The translations under genes were made by a program, and so were the position numbers. A stretch of 64,000 bases of DNA from Planctomycetota bacterium (GTDB lineage: Bacteria > Planctomycetota > Phycisphaerae > Sedimentisphaerales > Anaerohalosphaeraceae): contig VRUI01000002.1 of the NCBI GenBank assembly GCA_019456225.1, forward strand, positions 62,001 through 126,000, given 5' to 3'. The notes beneath the pieces were generated by a model. That model was not told the DNA's origin, did not search any database, and saw only the letters and a list, made by a program, of their open reading frames with translations. How positions within the stretch are numbered: the stretch's first letter is position 1; each line of letters opens with the position of its first letter. Positions 20,419-58,634 of the stretch are shown here, one piece after another.

Positions 20419-20811
20419 ATGCTTAAAGTAAAAAATACTCTTGTTCTGGGTGGTTTGATAACGGCGTGGCCGGTGCTTTGTTTTGGCGTAACTGACCCCA
20501 ATGGTCAATTCAATGTCCCCGGCGACGATAGCAATTTCTTTAGTACTTTGATAACGTCTATCTTTTTCATTGTTGTTCTCGGTGGAATCGCACTCTATCT
20601 CTCTAAGAAGCTCATGCCAAAACTCCGCCCGACGTCCGGTCAGGATATCAATATTCGCGAGACGATCCATCTGGGCCCTAATAAGACGATACATCTTGTC
20701 GAAGTCGGCAAAAAGAAGTTCCTTGTCGGAAGCACCTCAGAAAATATTTCTATGCTTGCCGATGTAACCGAAACACTTGACGCCAAAGATGGCGATCAAG
20801 ATATTATTTGA
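20419..20811 (+). CDS. fliO: Flagellar biosynthesis protein FliO
   Basis: FliO is a small membrane protein that helps assemble the FliP-FliR gate. A signal or first hydrophobic stretch (8-24) is followed by a membrane helix (about 40-62, LITSIFFIVVLGGIALYLSKK). The C-terminal cytoplasmic SH3-like part has the family feature INIRETIHLGPNKTIHLVEVGKKKFLVG. It is 130 aa and directly precedes fliP. Confidence 0.88.
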   Translation: MLKVKNTLVLGGLITAWPVLCFGVTDPNGQFNVPGDDSNFFSTLITSIFFIVVLGGIALYLSKKLMPKLRPTSGQDINIRETIHLGPNKTIHLVEVGKKKFLVGSTSENISMLADVTETLDAKDGDQDII

Positions 20812-20818
20812 GGACGCC

Positions 20819-21637
20819 ATGTCGATTAAAAATATACTAGTAATCATGGTTTGTTTCTGGCTGGTTCTTCCGGCAGGTTTGGTTTCTGCCATAGGCGAAG
20901 AGGATGCCGGCAAAGAGAAAGCCAGGTCGATGCCGGGTGTTGGAGAAATTCTTGATGTGATCGGCAAGGCGACGACACCTGAAGAGACGGGCGACCAAAA
21001 ACCGGAATGGTCCGGGCCTATCAAATTGGTTATTGTTTTTACCGCTCTTGCGATAATCCCAAGCCTTTTGATCATGATGACTTCGTTTACTCGTATCATT
21101 ATCGTATTGTCATTTGCCAGGCGTGCGCTTGGTACGCAGACCATTCCTCCGACGACGGCAATCATCGGGCTTGCGATGTTTCTTACGCTGTTTACGATGG
21201 CGCCGACTTTTTCCGAGATCAACGAGAAGGCTATCGGCCCGTATCTTGCAGATGAGGTCGATTTTAATGCGGCACTTGCGGTGACGGGTGAAAGTATCAA
21301 AGGCTTCATGCTCAAACAGGTTCTTCGACGACCAGCGGATCTTAACCTCTTTGTTCAGATGTCCAGAATCGAAAAGCCCGAAAGCCCGGAAATGGTTCCG
21401 CTTTATGTGACGATACCGGCATTTATTATCAGTGAGTTTCGGACGGCTTTTGAGATGGGGTGCCTTTTGTTTATTCCGTTTTTGCTGATCGATCTTGTTA
21501 CTGCGAGTATTCTTTTAAGTGCCGGAATGATGATGCTTCCGCCGGTTATGGTATCGCTGCCGTTCAAGCTGATTTTGTTTATTCTTGTTGACGGTTGGTC
21601 GCTGCTTGCTAAGAGTTTGAGTTTGAGTTTTGGATAG
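20819..21637 (+). CDS. fliP: Flagellar export gate protein FliP
   Basis: FliP forms the core of the export gate. The mature part matches the family well: PSLLIMMTSFTRIIIVLSFARRALGTQTIPP, then FVQMSRIEKPESPEMVPLYVTIPAFIISEFRTAFEMGCLLFIPFLLIDLVTASILLSAGMMMLPP. The N-terminus looks like a signal peptide. The ATG at 20819 (272 aa) with a TGAGG sequence seven bases upstream is preferred over an ATG at 20777, which would overlap fliO. Confidence 0.95.
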   Translation: MSIKNILVIMVCFWLVLPAGLVSAIGEEDAGKEKARSMPGVGEILDVIGKATTPEETGDQKPEWSGPIKLVIVFTALAIIPSLLIMMTSFTRIIIVLSFARRALGTQTIPPTTAIIGLAMFLTLFTMAPTFSEINEKAIGPYLADEVDFNAALAVTGESIKGFMLKQVLRRPADLNLFVQMSRIEKPESPEMVPLYVTIPAFIISEFRTAFEMGCLLFIPFLLIDLVTASILLSAGMMMLPPVMVSLPFKLILFILVDGWSLLAKSLSLSFG

Positions 21638-21651
21638 TAGGAGATACTGTT

Positions 21652-21921
21652 TTGGATGCTAATTGGGTATTGTTTATAGGTCGTCATACTCTTGAGACGG
21701 CTTTTCTGGTCGCCGCTCCGATACTTATTGTTTGTATTATTGTCGGTCTTCTGGTTTCTCTGTTTCAGGCAGTCACATCACTTAAAGACATGACGTTGTC
21801 TATGGTCCCAAAGCTCTTTGCCGTTGGGATTACCGCGGTAATATTCGGCGGGTGGATGCTTGAGGTTGTCTTGAGGTTTACTAATGAGATTTTTTCCTAC
21901 ATTCAGAATTACGGTTCGTAA
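21652..21921 (+). CDS. fliQ: Flagellar export gate protein FliQ
   Basis: This is an 89-aa protein with two membrane helices and the family sequence LETAFLVAAPILIVCIIVGLLVSLFQAVTSLKDMTLSMVPK. The start is a TTG at 21652 with AGGAG about ten bases upstream; no in-frame ATG lies closer. It follows fliP and precedes fliR by 2 bp, the standard gate-gene order. Confidence 0.94.
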   Translation: MDANWVLFIGRHTLETAFLVAAPILIVCIIVGLLVSLFQAVTSLKDMTLSMVPKLFAVGITAVIFGGWMLEVVLRFTNEIFSYIQNYGS

Positions 21922-21923
21922 CT

Positions 21924-22673
21924 ATGGAATTCTTTGAAGGAAGAATCCTTGCCTTTGTGATGGTCCTAACCAGGGTGTCGGCGTTTATGATATCTGCTCC
22001 GATTTTCAGTTGGGTGGCGATCCCAATGCGAATTAGAGTTGCTGTGGCGTTTTTGACAAGTATATTTTTTGCCATGATAACTCCGGCTGCAGAGTCTGTA
22101 AATTCGATCATTTCGGTTTTCCTTTTGCTCGCCAATGAAGCGGTGTACGGCATCGCTTTGGGACTTTCGACAACGTTGCTGTACTCTGCTGTGAAAATGA
22201 GCGGCAGGATAGCCGAGCGGCAAATGGGTATGGCAATGGCCGAGGTGATGGACCCGTTTACCGGCGAAAGAGCCCAGCCGATCGGCATGATGATGGAGAT
22301 ATTATTTATTATGCTGCTGCTATCGGTAGACGCTCATCACCTTTTTTTAAAGACGATAGCAAGAAGTTTCGAAGTTTTTGCACCGGGAAGCATTCCGGAA
22401 GTGGCGATGCTTGTAAAGGGGATAGTTTCAGCAGGTTCAATGATGCTTGTAATGGCTCTTAAACTTGCAGTTCCGATCATGGGAGTGTTTATGGTTATGA
22501 CTGTTGTGCTTGGAGTGCTTGCGAGGATCGCACCGGAAATGAATATTTTCTTTCTGAGCTTTCCGATCAGGATTGGGCTTGGACTTATAATGATAACTTA
22601 TTTGGTACCGTTTATAAACAGCTATACGGTCCAGTTTGCTAAGCTTCTTAGTAAGCTTTTGCCGTTGAGTTGA
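21924..22673 (+). CDS. fliR: Flagellar export gate protein FliR
   Basis: FliR completes the helical FliP/Q/R gate. The 249-aa protein is largely hydrophobic and has the characteristic N-terminus FVMVLTRVSAFMISAPIFSWVAIPMRIRVAVAF and the middle segment RIAERQMGMAMAEVMDPFTGE. The ATG follows the fliQ stop after two bases, so translation is probably coupled. Confidence 0.94.
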   Translation: MEFFEGRILAFVMVLTRVSAFMISAPIFSWVAIPMRIRVAVAFLTSIFFAMITPAAESVNSIISVFLLLANEAVYGIALGLSTTLLYSAVKMSGRIAERQMGMAMAEVMDPFTGERAQPIGMMMEILFIMLLLSVDAHHLFLKTIARSFEVFAPGSIPEVAMLVKGIVSAGSMMLVMALKLAVPIMGVFMVMTVVLGVLARIAPEMNIFFLSFPIRIGLGLIMITYLVPFINSYTVQFAKLLSKLLPLS

Positions 22674-22726: not shown

Positions 22727-23812
22727 ATGGCTGAGAAACCTGCCGGCGAACGTACCGAAAAACCGTCACCGCGACGGATACGCAAAACGCGTAAAAAGGG
22801 AAAGGTTCCGCAAAGCCAGGAGCTGCCCTCGGTGATCTCGCTTGCTACACTTCTTGTCGTATGCACGGTAATGGGGCCCAAAGTCTTCAGGTGGTTCAGA
22901 ACGCAGATCTCCGAAAGTATGGCAATCAACAATGAATTCATGTCCGGGCCGGACGCTTTTGTCGGTTTTTTTTCTTCGAAGATGATCGAGATGACGTTAA
23001 TAGCAGCTCCGTTTTTTATCGCACTAACAGTGGCAGGCATCGCCAGTTCAATTTTTGTCGGCGGCATAACCTGGTCAATGAATCCTCTTAAGTGGAAACT
23101 AAGTGCCATATCGCCTATAAAGGGTGTTAAGAATTTATTTTCTCTAAGCTCTGTTATGAATCTCTTTCTGTCGGTAGTGAAGATCATTATTATATCGGTG
23201 ATAGTCTATTTATATTTCCGCGATAAGCTCCCATCGTTCATGGAACTACAATGGTTATGGCCGGCTGATATGCCAGGTGCGATCGCAGAGCCTGTTGCAG
23301 GCGTTGTACTTCGTATCTGCATAGCGCTGATCTCAGTAGCATTGATCGATGTTGCTTATCAGAAATGGAAATATATGAAAGATATGAAGATGACCAAGCA
23401 GGAGCTTAAGGAAGAGCATAAGGAAACCGACGGGTCTCCTGAAGTTAAGAGCAAACTCCGCCAAAAACAGATTGCGATAGCGACTAAACGCATGCTTAAA
23501 GAGGTGCCAAAGGCAGATGTGATACTGGTTAACCCGACTCATGTCGCGGTAGCTATAAGGTATGACTCGGCGGTGTCGGACGCGCCGGTTGTCAAAGCTA
23601 AGGGCGGCGACCATATGTGTGAAAAGATCAAAGAGATCGCAAGAGCTTATGGCGTGCCCATCGTTCGCAAGCCTAAACTGGCAAGGACTATCTTTAAGAC
23701 TGTCAAGATCGATGAACCGGTCCCGGAAAGCCTGTTTGTCGCAGTCGCCGAGATACTTGCAATGATCTACAGACTCAGGCAGAAAAAACGTATGGCACAA
23801 GCAAATGTATAA
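22727..23812 (+). CDS. flhB: Flagellar export switch protein FlhB
   Basis: FlhB sets export substrate specificity together with FliK. The N-terminus EKPSPRRIRKTRKKGKVPQSQE, four membrane helices and the cytoplasmic domain are all present. The self-cleavage motif NPTH is at 269-272 inside VILVNPTHVAVAIRYD. The 361-aa length is typical. The next gene downstream is not a normal flhA but an FlhA-like chimera. Confidence 0.95.
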   Translation: MAEKPAGERTEKPSPRRIRKTRKKGKVPQSQELPSVISLATLLVVCTVMGPKVFRWFRTQISESMAINNEFMSGPDAFVGFFSSKMIEMTLIAAPFFIALTVAGIASSIFVGGITWSMNPLKWKLSAISPIKGVKNLFSLSSVMNLFLSVVKIIIISVIVYLYFRDKLPSFMELQWLWPADMPGAIAEPVAGVVLRICIALISVALIDVAYQKWKYMKDMKMTKQELKEEHKETDGSPEVKSKLRQKQIAIATKRMLKEVPKADVILVNPTHVAVAIRYDSAVSDAPVVKAKGGDHMCEKIKEIARAYGVPIVRKPKLARTIFKTVKIDEPVPESLFVAVAEILAMIYRLRQKKRMAQANV

Positions 23813-23885
23813 TGATTATTGGATAATGTATAATGAATGAAACCGCCTTCGGCGGATGTTTTTTTTCGCGGGCTTCAAGCTCGCA
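23810..23885. repeat. Heptamer array with two hairpins between flhB and the FlhA-like gene
   Basis: TAATGAT, TATTGGA, TAATGTA, TAATGAA start at the flhB stop codon. They are followed by CCGCC-TTC-GGCGG and eight T residues, and then a second hairpin (GCGGGCTT/AGCTCGC). The hairpin with T-run could attenuate transcription into the downstream gene. A near-copy of the heptamer block lies at 34142-34180 on the other strand. Confidence 0.65.
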
Positions 23886-23915: not shown

Positions 23916-25514
23916 ATGTCAGAAATCGTAACCTATAAAAGTGATTCGACTGTTGAGACTGAGGCACGCCGTGCCATGGAGCCTTGTCTGCTTGCACGCG
24001 GACTGGTTTTATTTGGAGTCAGTTCACTGGTGATCATTGCGGCGATCGCTGTTCCGATCCCGGAGAGTTTTTTGGGGTTGCTTGACGCTGGATGGATACT
24101 TACGGTCTGTTTGTCGGCAGCAATCCTGACACTTTCGATCATGGCAAAAAATCTGTCAGAGCTTTCAGGGTTTGCCTCGTTTGTCATATCGATCACTTTG
24201 ATGCGGCTTGGGTTTGCCGTTGCTTCTGCAAAGTCGATAATTATTCATCAATCGGCTGGAAGTCTTATCGAAAAAACCGGTTCACTTTTGATGCTGGAGA
24301 ATCTTTCCCTTTATGCGGTCGTTATACCGGTTGCGATTCTGGCCGGGGTCGTTATGATATTTATGGCGACCAACGTCGTGATTAAAAAGACATCAAAATA
24401 TACGACCGACACTTTGCCCTTTAAATACATCAGTGCCGAAGCAGATCTTAATGCTTCGGTCATAAACGAGTCACAGGCAGCGGAAATTAAAGGCAAGATC
24501 CAGGCGGAGGCGAAGTTTTACATTTCCATGGCAACTACGGGAAAATTCCTCCGGTTTGACGCGGTAATAAATGTCCTGATCGTTGGATGCGGGGCACTTG
24601 TGATATTAAAATCCCATGCGGCAAAGGGGGTCAGCGGCAGCGTTGTAGGAGATGGGGCCGTGGAGGTAGGCATAATGCTTGCGCTAGGACTTTGGGCTGT
24701 GGTATTTTTGCCGGCAATTGTACTTGCGTTTTCAAGCGGTTCAGTTGTTAACAAGAAAAATATGCATGCTGACAGCGGCATTGCTGTCGGTGCCGCCGGC
24801 AATGACAATAACCAAACAGAAACAGTCGATAGCGAGGAAAACGAGTTTGAATTGCTTAACCCGGATTTCGTTGACGTTTCCAGCCAGGTCGGAAACGGAA
24901 GAAGGCTTGACATTGCCGATGATTTTGCAGACAATTCAGATTATAACATTGAATCGAAAAACAAAGATATTGCTAACGAAGTCACTGAGGGTGAAGATAT
25001 GTATGCTGATATTGCAGAGTTGATCATGGCAGAGTGTCAAAACGGACCTGTGACAGCGCTTCTATGCTCCGAGAGCGTTGAACTGCTGCCGGTAACTACA
25101 GCTGTTAAGATCGCCGTAGAACTGACGGATCGCGAAAAAAAATGTTTACTGATCGATGCCGATACAGCTAGAGATGCTGTTTATAAAGTATTTGATATCG
25201 CCCCTGATTCCGGGGCAGAACCGGTTGACTCCTGCATAGAAAATCTTTCGGTCTGGGCTGTTTGCAACGAGAGCAAGACTATAGGCAACGATCTTGCCGC
25301 CAAGATAAACAAGGTCGGCGGCGATTACGATTGCATTATAATCTATGCGCCGCGGATTGAAGATTCAAACTTTTACGGCAAGCTAGCCGGTTTTGTTAGT
25401 GTTGCGGGATTTGCTACCGGCAGCAACGATAACGATGAAAAGTATATCCTACAGTTAAAAGGGTTGCTTGCTTCGGTGGATTGCAAGTGTATTGTCAGAG
25501 AGAGTCTGGCTTAG
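23916..25514 (+). CDS. FlhA-like membrane protein with MinD/BY-kinase-like C-terminal domain
   Basis: Residues ~28-280 are a shortened FlhA export-gate membrane domain. They align with the authentic FlhA at 56493-58634: FASFVISITLMRLGFAVASAK versus FPSLLLFVTLFRLSLNVASTR, EADLNAS versus DADLNAG, and FLRFDA versus FIRGDA, so the conserved gate Asp (here Asp215) is kept. The FlhA cytoplasmic substrate-docking domain is absent. After an acidic linker (~281-360) comes a P-loop-like fold (361-532): a TALLCSES strand, KKCLLIDADTARDAV (411-), ENLSVWAV, and YDCIIIYAPRIED (471-483). This matches the MinD/BY-kinase pattern, but the Walker A Gly/Lys residues are replaced by VELLPVTT. It stands where flhA-flhF-flhG often follows flhB. 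No Shine-Dalgarno sequence is seen. Function is unknown. Confidence 0.82.
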   Translation: MSEIVTYKSDSTVETEARRAMEPCLLARGLVLFGVSSLVIIAAIAVPIPESFLGLLDAGWILTVCLSAAILTLSIMAKNLSELSGFASFVISITLMRLGFAVASAKSIIIHQSAGSLIEKTGSLLMLENLSLYAVVIPVAILAGVVMIFMATNVVIKKTSKYTTDTLPFKYISAEADLNASVINESQAAEIKGKIQAEAKFYISMATTGKFLRFDAVINVLIVGCGALVILKSHAAKGVSGSVVGDGAVEVGIMLALGLWAVVFLPAIVLAFSSGSVVNKKNMHADSGIAVGAAGNDNNQTETVDSEENEFELLNPDFVDVSSQVGNGRRLDIADDFADNSDYNIESKNKDIANEVTEGEDMYADIAELIMAECQNGPVTALLCSESVELLPVTTAVKIAVELTDREKKCLLIDADTARDAVYKVFDIAPDSGAEPVDSCIENLSVWAVCNESKTIGNDLAAKINKVGGDYDCIIIYAPRIEDSNFYGKLAGFVSVAGFATGSNDNDEKYILQLKGLLASVDCKCIVRESLA

Positions 25515-25517
25515 CAA

Positions 25518-27917
25518 TTAGCGCTGGATCTGGAGCATACTCAGTGCGGATAATTGCTGCTGTAGTAATGTCATGGTTTTTTCAAGACGGGCAAACTTTG
25601 CGGTCAGTCGCTGTTCTTTCCTGTCAAGTCTTTTCTCTTCCTGTTCAATCCTCTTGTCAAGTTCTTCCATGGCTTTGTCACCGCTTTTAGTATCAATGGA
25701 AAGGTATCCGTTGGATGAGTCGAGGACATCGTCGAGGCGTTCATGGAGAGCACCAGCAAATCCCTGTTGAACATGGATGGTTGCTGTATAAGTCTGGCTC
25801 GGGGAAGTTGAACCCACATCAATGGATATTTGCAAGTCACGTTCGGGGTACCATTCGCTTTCTTCGTCAAGCCGATCCTTCATAATAATAATACCGGTTA
25901 GAATATTCCAGTCGGTCTGGTCTCGCCATTCTGTTTCTGTTGAGAGCTTAATCTTTGCAGATGAAATATTACCGTCTGCTCCAGTAGTAACTTCTACGTC
26001 ATAGTTCCCAGCCTGGGTAAATTTACTGGAATCTTTGAAGTTGATAGTTTCCTTGTCGGTTCCGCTGCTTCTTCCAGTATTGAAGGCACCTAAAAGTGCT
26101 GCGACTGCCTCATAATCATTATCGATAGCTTCGTCGAGCTTCGCTTCGTCAAGCGAAATGGTTCCTAGCTTTTCTTGATCATCGCTGAAATCCAGGCCGA
26201 TCTCCCAGGCGTATAGATACTCTTCCTCGCCTTCAACAAATCCCGAAGCGGGAGTTCTCATACCGGTCCTCATAATGGATTGGATTACTCTTGCTGTGTA
26301 GCTTAAGATCAGGACGCCTGCAGTGTTTGTTTCTTTATCGTATGCTGTTTTTTCCTTAATAAAGGATACTGTTGAGTTGTAGGTATTTACAAGACCTCTG
26401 AGCTTTGCTTTTAATTTATTTGTGTCTTTGTTCAGGCTGATCTGTACCGTTCCAACGTCGTAAAGTTCCATCGATACGCCGGGCAGGACGTTTGTAAGTG
26501 AATTTGAACTTCTGCTTATGAAGGCTTTTGCGGTTTCTTCTACGGAATAATTTGAAGCAGTCGCAGGCGTAAGACCGCTGGGATCTATCGAGATCATTGA
26601 CGCATCGCCTATCGAAGATGCAAACGTAAATGTCACATCGCCTGCGTCAAGAGTACCCGCAACGGTTATGTCGTCGGCGCTTACGTTCGTAAGCAATTCC
26701 AGAGCATCCTGTATGTCCTGGGCCGTCGCGTCATAGTTAATATTAGCCGTTTCCTCACCGCCATATGTAAGGGTAAATGTTCCCAAAGTTGGTGATGTAG
26801 TTGCAGATAGTGTTTGTACTTCCGAGGCTGGGTAGCCGTCTACTTTGATCAGACTGTCCTGAGCGGCCTGGGTTTCGAGGAAGTCTGCGGGACTAATATT
26901 AGTATTAGTAACATCATCTGCATAATCCCCGCCTTTTGTTCCGCCATCACCGGCTGCAATACTGAAAGTAGGCAAGCTAAGCGAAATCGGATCGCCGACA
27001 TCCACTCCGGTCAAGGCTAGTGAGATTGTTGTATTCTCATAACCACTGACATCATCGGTCAGGGTAATCCTTCCATCCTCAAACTTGGCCTTTGCGAATC
27101 CATCATAGGCGTCATTGATACGGTCGATAAGGTGACCGACAGTCATGTCTACCGTAAAGTTAAGATCCTTCTGGGCGATCGCGTTGCCTAAGTAGTTATT
27201 GCCTGTGATCTCGATAACTTCCGAGCCTGTGTAGGTTCCAGTGGTGAATCCGTCGAGATCAACTAACTTCGTTGCCAGAGATGCGTCTTCAGAATCCTTT
27301 TCCAGTTTTGCGTTTGCTGCAAGTACTTGTGTTGTACTGGAGTTTATTGTGATCTGGTAGTCGGAGCCGGCATCGTTGCCGCTGAGGACGAGATGGAAGA
27401 CTCCTTCGTTACCATTGTCGTACTCAAGCAGAGTTGCAGTTACGCCAGGGTTGTTTGTGTCATTGTTAATCAGGCCTGCGAGGTCTTCGAGTGTCGTTGA
27501 CGCGTCAGTGTTTATGATTCTTTCCTCATGGTTGTACGAATAGATGAATTTGCCGGAACCAACGAGTGATTCTTTGAGTAGGAATCCTGAATGAACCAAG
27601 CGTTCTGAGTTTGCCAGTTGGTTCACCTCGATCTCGTGATTGCCTTCAAAAACACCGGTCGATGCAGCTGTCGCGGTGAGAATGTCTTTGTCGCTTGAGG
27701 TGGCCTTAAAAGCAGTGAGGTTATCAAAATTGGATAGAGATGACAGTGAATCATAGAATGAACTAAGTTTACCTCTCAACTCTTCAAGAGCGGTGTTTCT
27801 CTCTTGATACCGGTTTTTTTGGACTTTATATGTATACAGTCTCTGCTTACTGACAGTCATAAGCTGCTGAACTATAGTAGCGGTATCTATTCCGGTTGAT
27901 ATGCCGGGTAATTGCAT
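25518..27917 (-). CDS. fliD: Flagellar filament cap protein FliD
   Basis: FliD (HAP2) caps the filament and folds exported flagellin. The N-terminus MQLPGISTGIDTATIVQQLM and the coiled-coil that follows are diagnostic, as is the C-terminal coiled coil (KAMEELDKRIEQEEKRLDRKEQRL ... LQQQLSALSML). The 799-aa length is large because of several inserted beta-rich domains between ~170 and 480, which form the exposed part. A sigma-28-like promoter lies 71-96 bp upstream, fitting late expression. Confidence 0.93.
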   Translation of the reverse strand: MQLPGISTGIDTATIVQQLMTVSKQRLYTYKVQKNRYQERNTALEELRGKLSSFYDSLSSLSNFDNLTAFKATSSDKDILTATAASTGVFEGNHEIEVNQLANSERLVHSGFLLKESLVGSGKFIYSYNHEERIINTDASTTLEDLAGLINNDTNNPGVTATLLEYDNGNEGVFHLVLSGNDAGSDYQITINSSTTQVLAANAKLEKDSEDASLATKLVDLDGFTTGTYTGSEVIEITGNNYLGNAIAQKDLNFTVDMTVGHLIDRINDAYDGFAKAKFEDGRITLTDDVSGYENTTISLALTGVDVGDPISLSLPTFSIAAGDGGTKGGDYADDVTNTNISPADFLETQAAQDSLIKVDGYPASEVQTLSATTSPTLGTFTLTYGGEETANINYDATAQDIQDALELLTNVSADDITVAGTLDAGDVTFTFASSIGDASMISIDPSGLTPATASNYSVEETAKAFISRSSNSLTNVLPGVSMELYDVGTVQISLNKDTNKLKAKLRGLVNTYNSTVSFIKEKTAYDKETNTAGVLILSYTARVIQSIMRTGMRTPASGFVEGEEEYLYAWEIGLDFSDDQEKLGTISLDEAKLDEAIDNDYEAVAALLGAFNTGRSSGTDKETINFKDSSKFTQAGNYDVEVTTGADGNISSAKIKLSTETEWRDQTDWNILTGIIIMKDRLDEESEWYPERDLQISIDVGSTSPSQTYTATIHVQQGFAGALHERLDDVLDSSNGYLSIDTKSGDKAMEELDKRIEQEEKRLDRKEQRLTAKFARLEKTMTLLQQQLSALSMLQIQR

Positions 27918-55095: not shown

Positions 55096-55338
55096 TCAGG
55101 CACGAAAATCTATATGATCCATATCTTTGTCAGCAAGAACTTCTTTTTCTTCGATCTCAAGTTCTTCTTCGAGTTTTTCGTCAATGCCACCGCTCTGCTT
55201 GACGTCATGACGGTCTTTTCTTTTGTTTTCGTCTTTTTTTTCTTTTCTTCTTTCGATGCTGTTACTGAGATTGCTTAGTCCTTGAATATGGTGCAGGGTA
55301 TCTATCGGGTTGATATTGATATCTCTATCGACCATCAT
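55096..55338 (-). CDS. Small charged protein, unknown function
   Basis: The 80-aa protein overlaps the 3' end of fliA by 14 bp. The ATG ATG start has AAGGA about six bases upstream, which supports translation. The N-terminal ~28 residues are hydrophobic/polar (INPIDTLHHIQGLSNLSNSIERR) and the remainder is very Lys/Glu/Asp-rich, probably disordered or helical. I do not recognise a family. Confidence 0.6.
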   Translation of the reverse strand: MMVDRDININPIDTLHHIQGLSNLSNSIERRKEKKDENKRKDRHDVKQSGGIDEKLEEELEIEEKEVLADKDMDHIDFRA

Positions 55339-56125
55339 CGTATTCCTTTAGCTGGCTTGACAGTGAAAAGATCGCACTTGCATGAAGCTGGCTCACTCTC
55401 GACTCGGTAACCTCCAGTGCAAGGGAAGCCTCTTTCATTGTCAGTTCCTGATGATAATACAGTATTATCACCTGCCTTTGTTTCTCAGGCAAGTTCGTTA
55501 TGCATTCTGCGAGCATGGAGGCAAGTTCTCTTTTTTCGATAGCCGATTCCGGGGTGTCGGTCTTATGGGCAATAAGAACATCACCCAGTGCAGGCTCATC
55601 GTCATTAAGACCATGGATGGACATAAAATGCCTGGACCTTGCATTCTCGAATATTTTGTAGAGCTTATCTACGGTAATATCCATTTTGCCGGCAAGTTTT
55701 TCGTCTTCGATGATGAATCCGGTCTTTTCAATATTTTCCCGGGATATCTCTTCTGCCTGCTGAATCTGTTTGGAAAGGTTTGCAGGCGCAAACGACCAGC
55801 TTCTAAGCTCGTCGATAATTGCACCTTTAACCCTTATATAAGCGTATGTCTTAAACTCGGCATTTCTCGTCGGATCGAAATCACGAGCCGCTTTTACCAG
55901 TCCGACACTCCCTGCCGAGACAAGATCTTCCTTTGTAAGCGGAGGTTTTATGTAAGTAGTGACCTGGTCGACGATCCTTCCGACCATCGGCAAATACTCT
56001 ATAACCATTTTGTCCGGGTCGTGCTTTTTTTGACCGGAGGCATAGGCTTTGGCAGCAAGTCCCTTGAGACACTGCTGATTCGCTTGCTCGACCGAATTGT
56101 CTGTTTCAACTGTCACCGATAACAC
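55325..56125 (-). CDS. fliA: Flagellar sigma factor FliA (sigma-28)
   Basis: The 266-aa protein has the sigma-70-family regions in FliA order: region 2 (VIEYLPMVGRIVDQV ... LTKEDLVSAGSVGLVKAARDFDPTRNAEFKTYAYIRVKGAIIDELRSW), region 3, and region 4 (NLPEKQRQVIILYYHQELTMKEASLALEVTESRVSQLHASAI). It directs late flagellar transcription. The GTG at 56125 is used here; GTG at 56116 is an alternative. The short upstream spacer is filled with heptamer repeats. flgM downstream is its probable inhibitor. Confidence 0.94.
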   Translation of the reverse strand: MLSVTVETDNSVEQANQQCLKGLAAKAYASGQKKHDPDKMVIEYLPMVGRIVDQVTTYIKPPLTKEDLVSAGSVGLVKAARDFDPTRNAEFKTYAYIRVKGAIIDELRSWSFAPANLSKQIQQAEEISRENIEKTGFIIEDEKLAGKMDITVDKLYKIFENARSRHFMSIHGLNDDEPALGDVLIAHKTDTPESAIEKRELASMLAECITNLPEKQRQVIILYYHQELTMKEASLALEVTESRVSQLHASAIFSLSSQLKEYDDGR

Positions 56126-56131
56126 CCGCTT

Positions 56132-56158
56132 AATGCTAATCGCTAATTACTAAACTAC
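56132..56158. repeat. Heptamer units upstream of fliA
   Basis: On the minus strand TAGTAGT, TTAGTAA, TTAGCGA, TTAGCAT run in 7-bp phase from the stop codon of the preceding gene to the fliA start. Confidence 0.6.
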
Positions 56159-56394
56159 TATTGTTCTTCGGCATTTTCATCTTCACTTATCTTACTGTCA
56201 ACCATCGCAGTAAGAACGATCCTTGCGACAATACGCAAAGCTATTGTCATCATGCAATATACAAATACGGCTCCACATATTGCCCTATAGCTGCACGTAA
56301 TTGGCTCAACTCCATTGATCACGCCCATAATGGCTACTAAAAATAACGCCGCTATTGAAAATATTCCCGCAATAGAACTAATATACTGCTTCAT
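56158..56394 (-). CDS. Small membrane protein between flhA and fliA
   Basis: The 78-aa protein has two predicted membrane helices (about 6-26 and 40-62: IAGIFSIAALFLVAIMGVI and AICGAVFVYCMMTIALRIVARIV) and an acidic cytoplasmic tail (SEDENAEEQ). AGGA lies seven bases before the ATG. No family is recognised. Its position suggests an accessory membrane component of the export or motor apparatus, which is inference. Confidence 0.72.
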   Translation of the reverse strand: MKQYISSIAGIFSIAALFLVAIMGVINGVEPITCSYRAICGAVFVYCMMTIALRIVARIVLTAMVDSKISEDENAEEQ

Positions 56395-56404
56395 CTCTGT
56401 TTCC

Positions 56405-56475
56405 TAATATAAAAGCCTCGGCCAAAAGGTCGAATCCACCAATAATCATTCATAAATAATCAATCTCAAACTGGC
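56405..56475. repeat. Heptamer units plus GACC-TTTT-GGCC hairpin after flhA
   Basis: On the minus strand TTGATTA, TTTATGA, ATGATTA, TTGGTGG are followed by CGACC-TTTT-GGCCG, GAGGC and TTTTA. This is the same hairpin-GAGGC-T order as at 43350. Confidence 0.6.
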
Positions 56476-56492
56476 CGATCGGCTAATTTGAG

Positions 56493-58634
56493 TTATCCAC
56501 CGACAAGTGCCGGCGTCTGTGCCGACGACTGTTCTGTCATCTGTCCCGTCATTTCTATTGAAACCGTCTCAACTGGTTCTATCTCTGTGCCAAGTGATAT
56601 CTCATCATACGCCAGCACCGGAAGTCTCGACAGCGATCTTTCGGTCATTGCGGCAAGGGCCGCTCTCTGCCTCGAGTCGCATATCAAAACAACATTTTCA
56701 TAAGCCTTTTCCATCGCCGATCTCCATGCGTCAGCGAGTTTATTGTTGATTGCCATTGCCTGGTCCGGTGGTATTGCAAGGGTAAGTTCGTCGCCTTGCT
56801 TCTGGAGCGAGTTCAACATATAGTGCTCTAATGCCGGATCCAGCGTGATCGCCATTATCTTCTCTGTATTCGGTTCTTTATATCTTTCTGTGATCGTCCT
56901 GCTTAGTTTTTTCCGGGTAAGCTCGGTAAGCAGCGTCGGACTCTTAGTCTTGGCCGCGTTCTCACCGAGTGACTCAAGTATCTGCGCAAAGTTTCTAACC
57001 GGGATCCTGTCTTTAAGGAGATTTTGCAACACTCGCTGCAAAAGACCGAGTGAAACAAGATCTCCGACAACTTCCCCAACCAGCGATGGCTGATCCTTTC
57101 TAAGACGATTGACCAGTGCCTGAACATCTTCACGTGTAAGCATCTCATGAGCATACTGAGCAAGAGTCTCTGACAAGTGAGTTATCAGCACAGACTCCGG
57201 GTCGATGACGGTATACCCGCAAAGCGATGCGTTTTCCTTTTCCTCTTTAGTAACCCAAAGCGCCGGCAATCCATAAACCGGTTCCGTCGTGGGTATCCCC
57301 TGTATGGGTGAGTGAACGGTTCCCGAATCCATCGCAAGGAATTTATCCGGTTCAAGCCGGCCTTCGGCGATGGTATGATCGAAAAGCCTGATCTGGTAGA
57401 CGTTGGGCTCAAGGTTAATATTGTCGCAAAGACGAACAAGCGGCATTATAATACCAAGCTCTTTTGCAAACTTCTTTCTAAGTGCCCCGATACGCTCGAA
57501 CACATTACTCTTCTTTCTGGGATCGACCATCTCGATAAGCCTTACGCCGACCTGCACAGAGATCATATCGACATTTAGAAGTTCTTCAACCGGAGCCTTG
57601 TCACCATCATCGCTTTTCGTTGTATCCTTGGACTCGACCGTTTTCCTGCGCTGCTCATTTTTTGCTTTTACCATAGAACGTGAGATGATCGCACATCCGG
57701 CACCGATTAGGAAGAACGGTATTTTCGGCAGACCGGGAACAAGCCCCATCAGGCAGATCAGAACAGCCGCTATCATCAAAGGCTGAGAGTTACGCAAAAG
57801 CTGCCTGGTCATGTCATGGCTTACGCTCTGGTTGGAGGTTGTTTTCGTCACCAGAAAACCGGAGCTTATCGCGATAATAACAGAAGGGATCTGACTGACA
57901 AGACCGTCACCGATCGACAGCCTTGAATATGTCTGGGCAGCGTCTGCAACACCCATACCGTCCATTGAACCTATAACGATACCGCCGATAAGGTTTACGC
58001 ACGTAATGATCAAACCGGCGATAGCATCACCGCGAATGAACTTACTGGCACCATCCATCGCTCCGTAAAATTCACTTTCCTTTGAGATGTCTTTTCGCCG
58101 TTGCTTGGCTTCTGCATCCGTAATGGCGCCGGCGTTAAGATCAGCGTCGATAGCCATCTGCTTACCCGGCATCGCGTCAAGAGTAAACCTGGCGTTTACC
58201 TCACTGATACGCTCGGAACCCTTGGTGATAACGATGAACTGGATCACCACAAGAATAAGGAACATAACAAGACCGACTATAAGGTTTCCGCCGATAACGA
58301 GATTGCCAAATGTCTCGATCATGTCGCCGGCATTAGCATTAAGCAGAATAAGCCTCGTTGAAGCGACGTTAAGAGAAAGTCGAAAAAGTGTCACAAACAG
58401 CAATAGAGATGGAAACGTAGACAACTCCAACGCGTTCTTTGCCGAAAGCGTAATTATCAAAATACTGATAGCAAGAGCGATACTGCACGACAAAAGCAAG
58501 TCAAGTATAAACGTCGGCAGCGGGATGATCAACATCGCCAGAACCGCAGCAATACCTACAGCAAAGCTAATACTGCTATGCCGGGCAAGAATACCTGAAA
58601 TCGATTTATCGTTATTAGTAGTTTGTGTACTCAT
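56493..58634 (-). CDS. flhA: Flagellar export platform protein FlhA
   Basis: This is a full-length FlhA (713 aa). The N-terminal half has eight membrane helices with the FHIPEP-family signature FPSLLLFVTLFRLSLNVASTRLIL, the ADLNAG segment, and SKFIRGDAIAGLI with the conserved gate Asp. The C-terminal cytoplasmic docking domain (about 350-690) is intact, including IRIFD-like YQIRLFDHTIAEGRL and the segment LLKDRIPVRNFAQILESLGENA. It is the authentic export platform, whereas the gene at 23916 is a truncated paralogue. fliN lies upstream. Confidence 0.96.
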   Translation of the reverse strand: MSTQTTNNDKSISGILARHSSISFAVGIAAVLAMLIIPLPTFILDLLLSCSIALAISILIITLSAKNALELSTFPSLLLFVTLFRLSLNVASTRLILLNANAGDMIETFGNLVIGGNLIVGLVMFLILVVIQFIVITKGSERISEVNARFTLDAMPGKQMAIDADLNAGAITDAEAKQRRKDISKESEFYGAMDGASKFIRGDAIAGLIITCVNLIGGIVIGSMDGMGVADAAQTYSRLSIGDGLVSQIPSVIIAISSGFLVTKTTSNQSVSHDMTRQLLRNSQPLMIAAVLICLMGLVPGLPKIPFFLIGAGCAIISRSMVKAKNEQRRKTVESKDTTKSDDGDKAPVEELLNVDMISVQVGVRLIEMVDPRKKSNVFERIGALRKKFAKELGIIMPLVRLCDNINLEPNVYQIRLFDHTIAEGRLEPDKFLAMDSGTVHSPIQGIPTTEPVYGLPALWVTKEEKENASLCGYTVIDPESVLITHLSETLAQYAHEMLTREDVQALVNRLRKDQPSLVGEVVGDLVSLGLLQRVLQNLLKDRIPVRNFAQILESLGENAAKTKSPTLLTELTRKKLSRTITERYKEPNTEKIMAITLDPALEHYMLNSLQKQGDELTLAIPPDQAMAINNKLADAWRSAMEKAYENVVLICDSRQRAALAAMTERSLSRLPVLAYDEISLGTEIEPVETVSIEMTGQMTEQSSAQTPALVGG

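Follow-up and report, generated by a model that had tools for sequence, protein, structure and literature searches.

An FlhA-like membrane protein joined to a putative BY pseudokinase domain in the flagellar export cluster of a Sedimentisphaerales bacterium

We identified, directly downstream of flhB in a planctomycete flagellar cluster, a gene for a two-part protein that we call flhAx. Its membrane half is homologous to the N-terminal part of FlhA and its C-terminal half is, by sequence, a putative BY pseudokinase: a BY-kinase fold without the catalytic motifs. The gene is conserved and both halves are under purifying selection, so the export machine of these bacteria probably has an undescribed extra part. 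We put at about even the chance that this part is a non-transporting FlhA-like membrane subunit with a scaffolding or regulatory role at the flagellar export gate. A search of the open-access literature turned up no report of a comparable FlhA paralogue and, to our knowledge, FlhA has so far been treated as one component, an indivisible design of proton channel and docking ring.

Genomic context

The window, as we call the whole stretch of DNA that was analyzed, comprises 64,000 nt from a Planctomycetota bacterium (assembly GCA_019456225.1, contig VRUI01000002.1, positions 62,001 to 126,000, forward strand). GTDB places this organism in Phycisphaerae; Sedimentisphaerales; Anaerohalosphaeraceae, and its family is labelled f1 below. 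The features identified are listed in Table 1.

Table 1. Features of the flhAx locus and of the regular flhA gene, in window coordinates
Feature	Position	Strand	Basis
fliO	20419-20811	+	Pfam FliO
fliP	20777-21637	+	named from sequence and gene order
fliQ	21652-21921	+	named from sequence and gene order
fliR	21924-22673	+	named from sequence and gene order
flhB, directly upstream of flhAx	22727-23812	+	Pfam Bac_export_2, E 1e-113
Terminator-like hairpin with T-run in the flhB-flhAx gap	23843-23867	+	
flhAx, FlhA-TM/BY-pseudokinase chimera, 532 aa	23916-25514	+	ORF, Pfam, homologues in relatives
flhAx residues 40-286, FlhA-like TM1-TM6 with FHIPEP cytoplasmic loop, without TM7-8	24033-24773	+	Pfam FHIPEP, hhalign
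flhAx residues 287-360, low-confidence linker, probably disordered	24774-24995	+	predicted model
flhAx residues 312-318, linker motif ELLNPDF, kept in most f1 members	24849-24869	+	
flhAx residues 361-532, putative BY-kinase-like pseudokinase domain	24996-25511	+	profile and predicted fold
flhAx residues 391-394, LPVT replacing Walker A GKTT (Lys to Pro)	25086-25097	+	
flhAx residues 411-416, LLIDAD, Walker A' retained (Asp414 invariant)	25146-25163	+	
flhAx residues 474-479, IIIYAP replacing Walker B IIDSPP (Asp to Tyr)	25335-25352	+	
fliD-like gene, convergent, 3 bases past flhAx	25518-27917	-	named from sequence and context; same neighbor in relatives
Regular full-length flhA, 713 aa	56493-58634	-	FHIPEP, 817 bits

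The fliP-fliQ-fliR order of the window recurs in relatives when the loci are compared. FHIPEP matches in this genome number two, flhAx and a regular flhA whose product retains the tested export residues in the alignment; flhAx thus comes on top of a normal FlhA, as the original prediction held. The regular flhA adjoins a sigma-70 family gene, fliA-like, and both lie within 55325-58634. No FlhF was found above the cut-off in the window's genome. In some other f1 genomes the gap between flhB and flhAx contains promoter-like pairs, TTGAAC or TTGCCC with TATACT, as judged by eye.

The membrane half

Residues 40 to 286 of flhAx match Pfam FHIPEP with 93.9 bits (cut-off 29.1) and an E value of 1.2e-26, and they cover the profile only up to position 243 of 657. 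The protein also matches TIGR01398 (FlhA; E 4e-27), at 94.8 bits, which is below the equivalog cut-off of 772 bits. Profile-profile alignment (hhalign) of the flhAx family with FlhA gives E 2.5e-33 across FlhA residues 16 to 268 and ends there; the C-terminal domain has no similarity to FlhA. By these alignments, flhAx keeps TM1 to TM6 of FlhA (and SctV) together with the FHIPEP loop, and the homology ends where TM6 ends. The cytoplasmic docking domain, FlhAC, is gone, as originally proposed, and TM7-8 with it. We considered whether the linker motif ELLNPDF is left over from the beginning of FlhA domain D1 (ELLNVD in the FlhA of the window) and rejected this: the profile alignment stops before it, and the motif is absent from the f7 members that were read.

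The membrane half has six hydrophobic segments, and its predicted model has a pLDDT of about 75 to 90 over most of its length. FlhA is absent among the fold matches listed for the full-length model, so the identity of this half rests on sequence. The full-length model returned middling matches only, with unrelated Clp1 rows topping VIA-align; the C-terminal domain was therefore folded separately.

Three features had been singled out at the outset as specific to FlhA: the VASAK stretch, ADLNAS and a gate aspartate, Asp215. All three occur in the window protein, where Asp215 corresponds to FlhA Asp208, but the gate aspartates are not a family-wide trait. In Salmonella FlhA, Arg94, Asp208 and Asp249 are critical for export (PMC3139655); the window protein has Lys, Asp and Leu at these positions. 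Across 36 family members the essential Asp249 is retained in none, and the Asp208 position is occupied by Asp in 9 members and by Glu in 10. Likewise, none of the 36 retains position 137, a Gln in the local FlhA, and a single member retains Asp199. Better preserved are Asp45 (34/36), the Arg94 position (Arg or Lys in 34/36), and Pro161 and Lys163 of the FHIPEP loop (29 and 27 members). The regular FlhA proteins of the order keep these proton-path and FHIPEP positions almost without exception. Since Asp249 is kept in none of the 36, flhAx is unlikely to be a working, proton-pumping gate.

Selective loss of the proton path was rejected as a description of these changes. Taken together, the proton-path positions have a rate of conservation of 0.26, against 0.33 at other positions invariant in FlhA, a difference that is not significant (P 0.20), even if no member retains Asp249 or position 137. 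The membrane half thus drifted overall and not just at the proton path. What it retains is the ring-building part of FlhA: according to a structure preprint, the core of the FlhA ring consists of TM2-6, TM1 and TM7-8 decorate neighboring subunits, and the FlhB linker threads the FHIPEP cup (PMC13308203).

The pseudokinase half

As a single sequence, the C-terminal domain of the window protein has a weak Pfam match (AAA_31, E 5e-4). A family profile built from 37 domains, both fused and standalone, was run against solved structures. It matched the BY-kinases CapB1 (4jlv, E 1.4e-12), BceF (6z0p, 1.3e-11), VpsO (1.6e-8) and Wzc (8e-6), then MinD and Soj (about 3e-5) and a site-determining protein of the FlhG/MinD type (4e-4). 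Folded alone, the domain has a mean pLDDT of 72.8 and a pTM of 0.75, and the model contains the Rossmann sheet that had been anticipated for residues 361 to 532. Its nearest folds, which match along the entire domain, are VpsO (Z 16.7), Wzc (16.6) and CapA1B1 (16.6); the best 19 rows are all BY-kinases, and FlhG scores Z 12.8. In both sequence profile and fold, BY-kinases are the best matches, ahead of FlhG and MinD, which narrows the earlier assignment to a MinD/BY-kinase class.

The domain departs from BY-kinases (Wzc, CapB, BceF, VpsO; TIGR01007) at the catalytic motifs. The Walker A Gly and Lys are missing, as first reported, and LPVT stands in place of GKTT, so that proline occupies the position of the catalytic lysine. 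Of the other motifs, Walker A' (LLIDxD) is retained, the Walker B aspartate is lost, and the last 25 residues contain at most one tyrosine, so the Tyr-rich C-terminal cluster is absent. BY-kinase domains are joined to a polysaccharide co-polymerase, whereas this one is joined to a flagellar gate core. Among described proteins there is also a parallel with the BY pseudokinases EcpK and HfsB, which have the same fold without catalytic motifs, are reported in forms fused to membrane proteins, and for which, in the case of EcpK, a scaffold role has been proposed; these serve polysaccharide co-polymerases, unlike the flhAx domain, which follows FlhA TM1-6 in a flagellar cluster (PMC12004946).

Distribution and selection

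A search of 59 related genomes with the flhAx protein recovered about 25 full-length two-part homologues of 486 to 589 aa, about 19-32% identical. Altogether there are about 36 orthologues, in one order of the Phycisphaerae. Run against 161 genomes of the order, a profile detected flhAx in most f1 members that have FlhA and, outside f1, in 11 genomes of f7, two of f4 and one of f3, with one shortened form in f2. Sampling 298 genomes from the class and 392 from the phylum gave no further flhAx at an E value of 1e-57 or better, a threshold at which weaker cases could be missed; two matches in family f16 are confined to the membrane part and look like ordinary FlhA. A contig scan with a single flhAx protein gave no match, and one with a four-row alignment recovered six named loci, in relatives that are Planctomycetota/Phycisphaerae metagenome assemblies. 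Orthologues of the same two-part architecture in dozens of genomes place the observation far above chance and exclude a frameshifted normal flhA at the site.

We counted by hand the f1 genomes with a completeness of about 88% or more: FlhA and flhAx occur together in 18, FlhA only in three, neither in three and flhAx alone in none. In most loci of f1 and f7 the order is fliO-P-Q-R-flhB-flhAx followed by convergent fliD, and a few contigs have other neighbors. We consider it highly improbable that flhAx is an independent membrane protein, such as a sensor or channel, that has the FlhA fold and a role outside the flagellum. The promoter-like pairs seen by eye in some f1 genomes would suit such a protein, but flhAx lies within or beside flagellar export genes wherever the flanking sequence suffices, bar the few rearranged contigs, and within f1 it was not found without flagellar genes.

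For nine close pairs of flhAx genes, dN/dS is 0.09 to 0.51 in the membrane half and 0.10 to 0.48 in the pseudokinase half. The gene is dispensable for a flagellum, since many f7 genomes that have a full FlhA do without it, as does at least one f1 genome that is nearly complete (G144). One genome (G155, L158:7821-9071) has a shortened flhAx after flhB, of 416 aa, with no Pfam match and much of the FHIPEP loop missing; it has a pseudokinase-like domain and may be a loss intermediate or a variant. In many relatives fliD is followed downstream by ORFs of great length, about 980 to 2430 aa (L048, L053, L055, L153).

A proposed role at the export gate

The FlhA-like TM1-6 core, the location in the fliOPQR-flhB cluster and the co-occurrence with flagellar genes support a role at the gate, and the terminator-like hairpin between flhB and flhAx in the window speaks against it. 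In the proposed mechanism, flhAx would insert at the base of the gate, beside FlhB and/or the FlhA ring, via its TM2-6 core, the segment from which the Salmonella FlhA ring is built. The substitutions R94A, D208A and D249A make FlhA dominant negative, which has been read as inactive subunits being incorporated (PMC3139655). Such a subunit could neither pump protons nor dock cargo; instead, its pseudokinase would form a platform in the cytoplasm to which a partner binds without being phosphorylated, in line with the proposal for EcpK, and the outcome may be control of gate assembly, of FlhA ring formation or of export timing.

A selected relative of FlhA that has the ring core, minus essential proton-path residues and the docking ring, would show that the halves of the gate are evolutionarily separable, and the pseudokinase it acquired would belong to the type that controls the export of polysaccharides. 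It would also allow us to ask what the FlhA membrane core does alone (assembly, FlhB contact) and whether mixed FlhA rings exist.

Origin of the locus

Genes near flhB bear on where flhAx came from. Family f5 has flhB-flhA-flhF-flhG contiguously and the class outgroup has flhB-flhA. The other families that were read have flhA apart from flhB, and in most of their loci either flhAx or no gene at all separates flhB from fliD. The position after flhB, to which the original prediction attached weight, is the ancestral flhA position; flhAx now stands there and flhA appears to have been relocated. In a tree of the membrane halves the flhAx sequences group as a single clade (UFBoot 93) next to the order's FlhA; their branches are long, with a mean tip depth of 3.7 versus 1.1 for FlhA. 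Parsimony suggests that flhA was duplicated or moved, that the copy at the old locus became flhAx, and that losses followed.

Such a history could also leave a functionless relic of a duplicated flhA that is slowly decaying at its old locus. The long branches, the absence of flhAx from many f7, f2 and f4 genomes, and the shortened gene of G155 would fit this. Against it are dN/dS values well below 1 in both domains, the gain of a new and conserved domain, open frames in about 25 full loci and the conserved place of the gene, and we regard decay as very unlikely.

Among 159 genomes of the order, 11 have an FlhF above the cut-off; these all belong to f5, and none was found in f1 or the other families sampled. 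It is conceivable, though unlikely, that flhAx governs flagellar placement or number in place of a putatively lost FlhF and FlhG, with the membrane part as a tether at the nascent gate and the pseudokinase, of a MinD-related fold, recruiting the gate to a cell site. The FlhF distribution is what such a factor would predict. However, most f7 and f2 genomes have neither FlhF nor flhAx and still carry flagellar genes, and the domain is not closest to FlhG. FlhG/FleN, whose broad P-loop superfamily the domain shares, has the deviant Walker A (KGGxGKT) of MinD-type ATPases; flhAx has LPVT and no P-loop, and therefore no MinD-type ATP switch.

Returning to the gate, a fuller version of our preferred reading is that the export apparatus of the order has a second, proton-dead subunit of the FlhA type in which a BY-pseudokinase platform replaces the docking ring, a hitherto unrecognized regulatory part that arose where flhA used to lie, in a clade that has no FlhF. 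We offer this tentatively, at somewhat less than an even chance.

A standalone pseudokinase family

Standalone proteins, mostly of 190 to 290 aa and usually with an N-terminal TM segment, carry the C-terminal domain of flhAx as well, LPVT included. The C-domain profile of the fusion scores 80 to 149 bits on these, 18 to 58 on BY-kinases, 14 on the FlhG of sister family f5 and 12 on MinD. Because the standalone family scores highest, the fused and standalone domains share an ancestor. The base of the two in the C-domain tree has low support (UFBoot 42), so either form may be the older. The suggestion that flhAx arose by fusion with flhG is not supported by these scores. An origin by deletion between flhA and flhG, which in f5 lies two genes after flhA, was rejected on the same comparison.

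Standalone genes mostly end a cluster of SMC, two M16 peptidases and a coiled-coil protein. It is quite unlikely, in our estimate, that flhAx links the gate to the partner of the standalone pseudokinase, with the shared domain as an adaptor that binds the coiled-coil protein and thereby ties gate assembly to an envelope or cell-cycle module. The profile scores, the LPVT and LLIDxD..R motifs common to both domain types, and the coiled-coil gene that precedes the standalone gene in most loci would be expected of such an adaptor; the standalone gene is, however, retained in genomes in which no FlhA match was found (G015, G033).

One standalone gene lies at G000:C83:21278-21925 (locus L063:9270-9956), and similar genes occur in L064-L082. 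In the phylum sample at E 1e-12, strong matches to the standalone pseudokinase are all in the family of the window, and the others resemble BY-kinases. The coiled-coil protein encoded upstream has 386 to 1146 aa (L063:9960-11312, L066:2271-5711 and orthologues), with a conserved N-terminal motif D.DILQC.A.I and a C-terminal motif I...DI..[FY]C.
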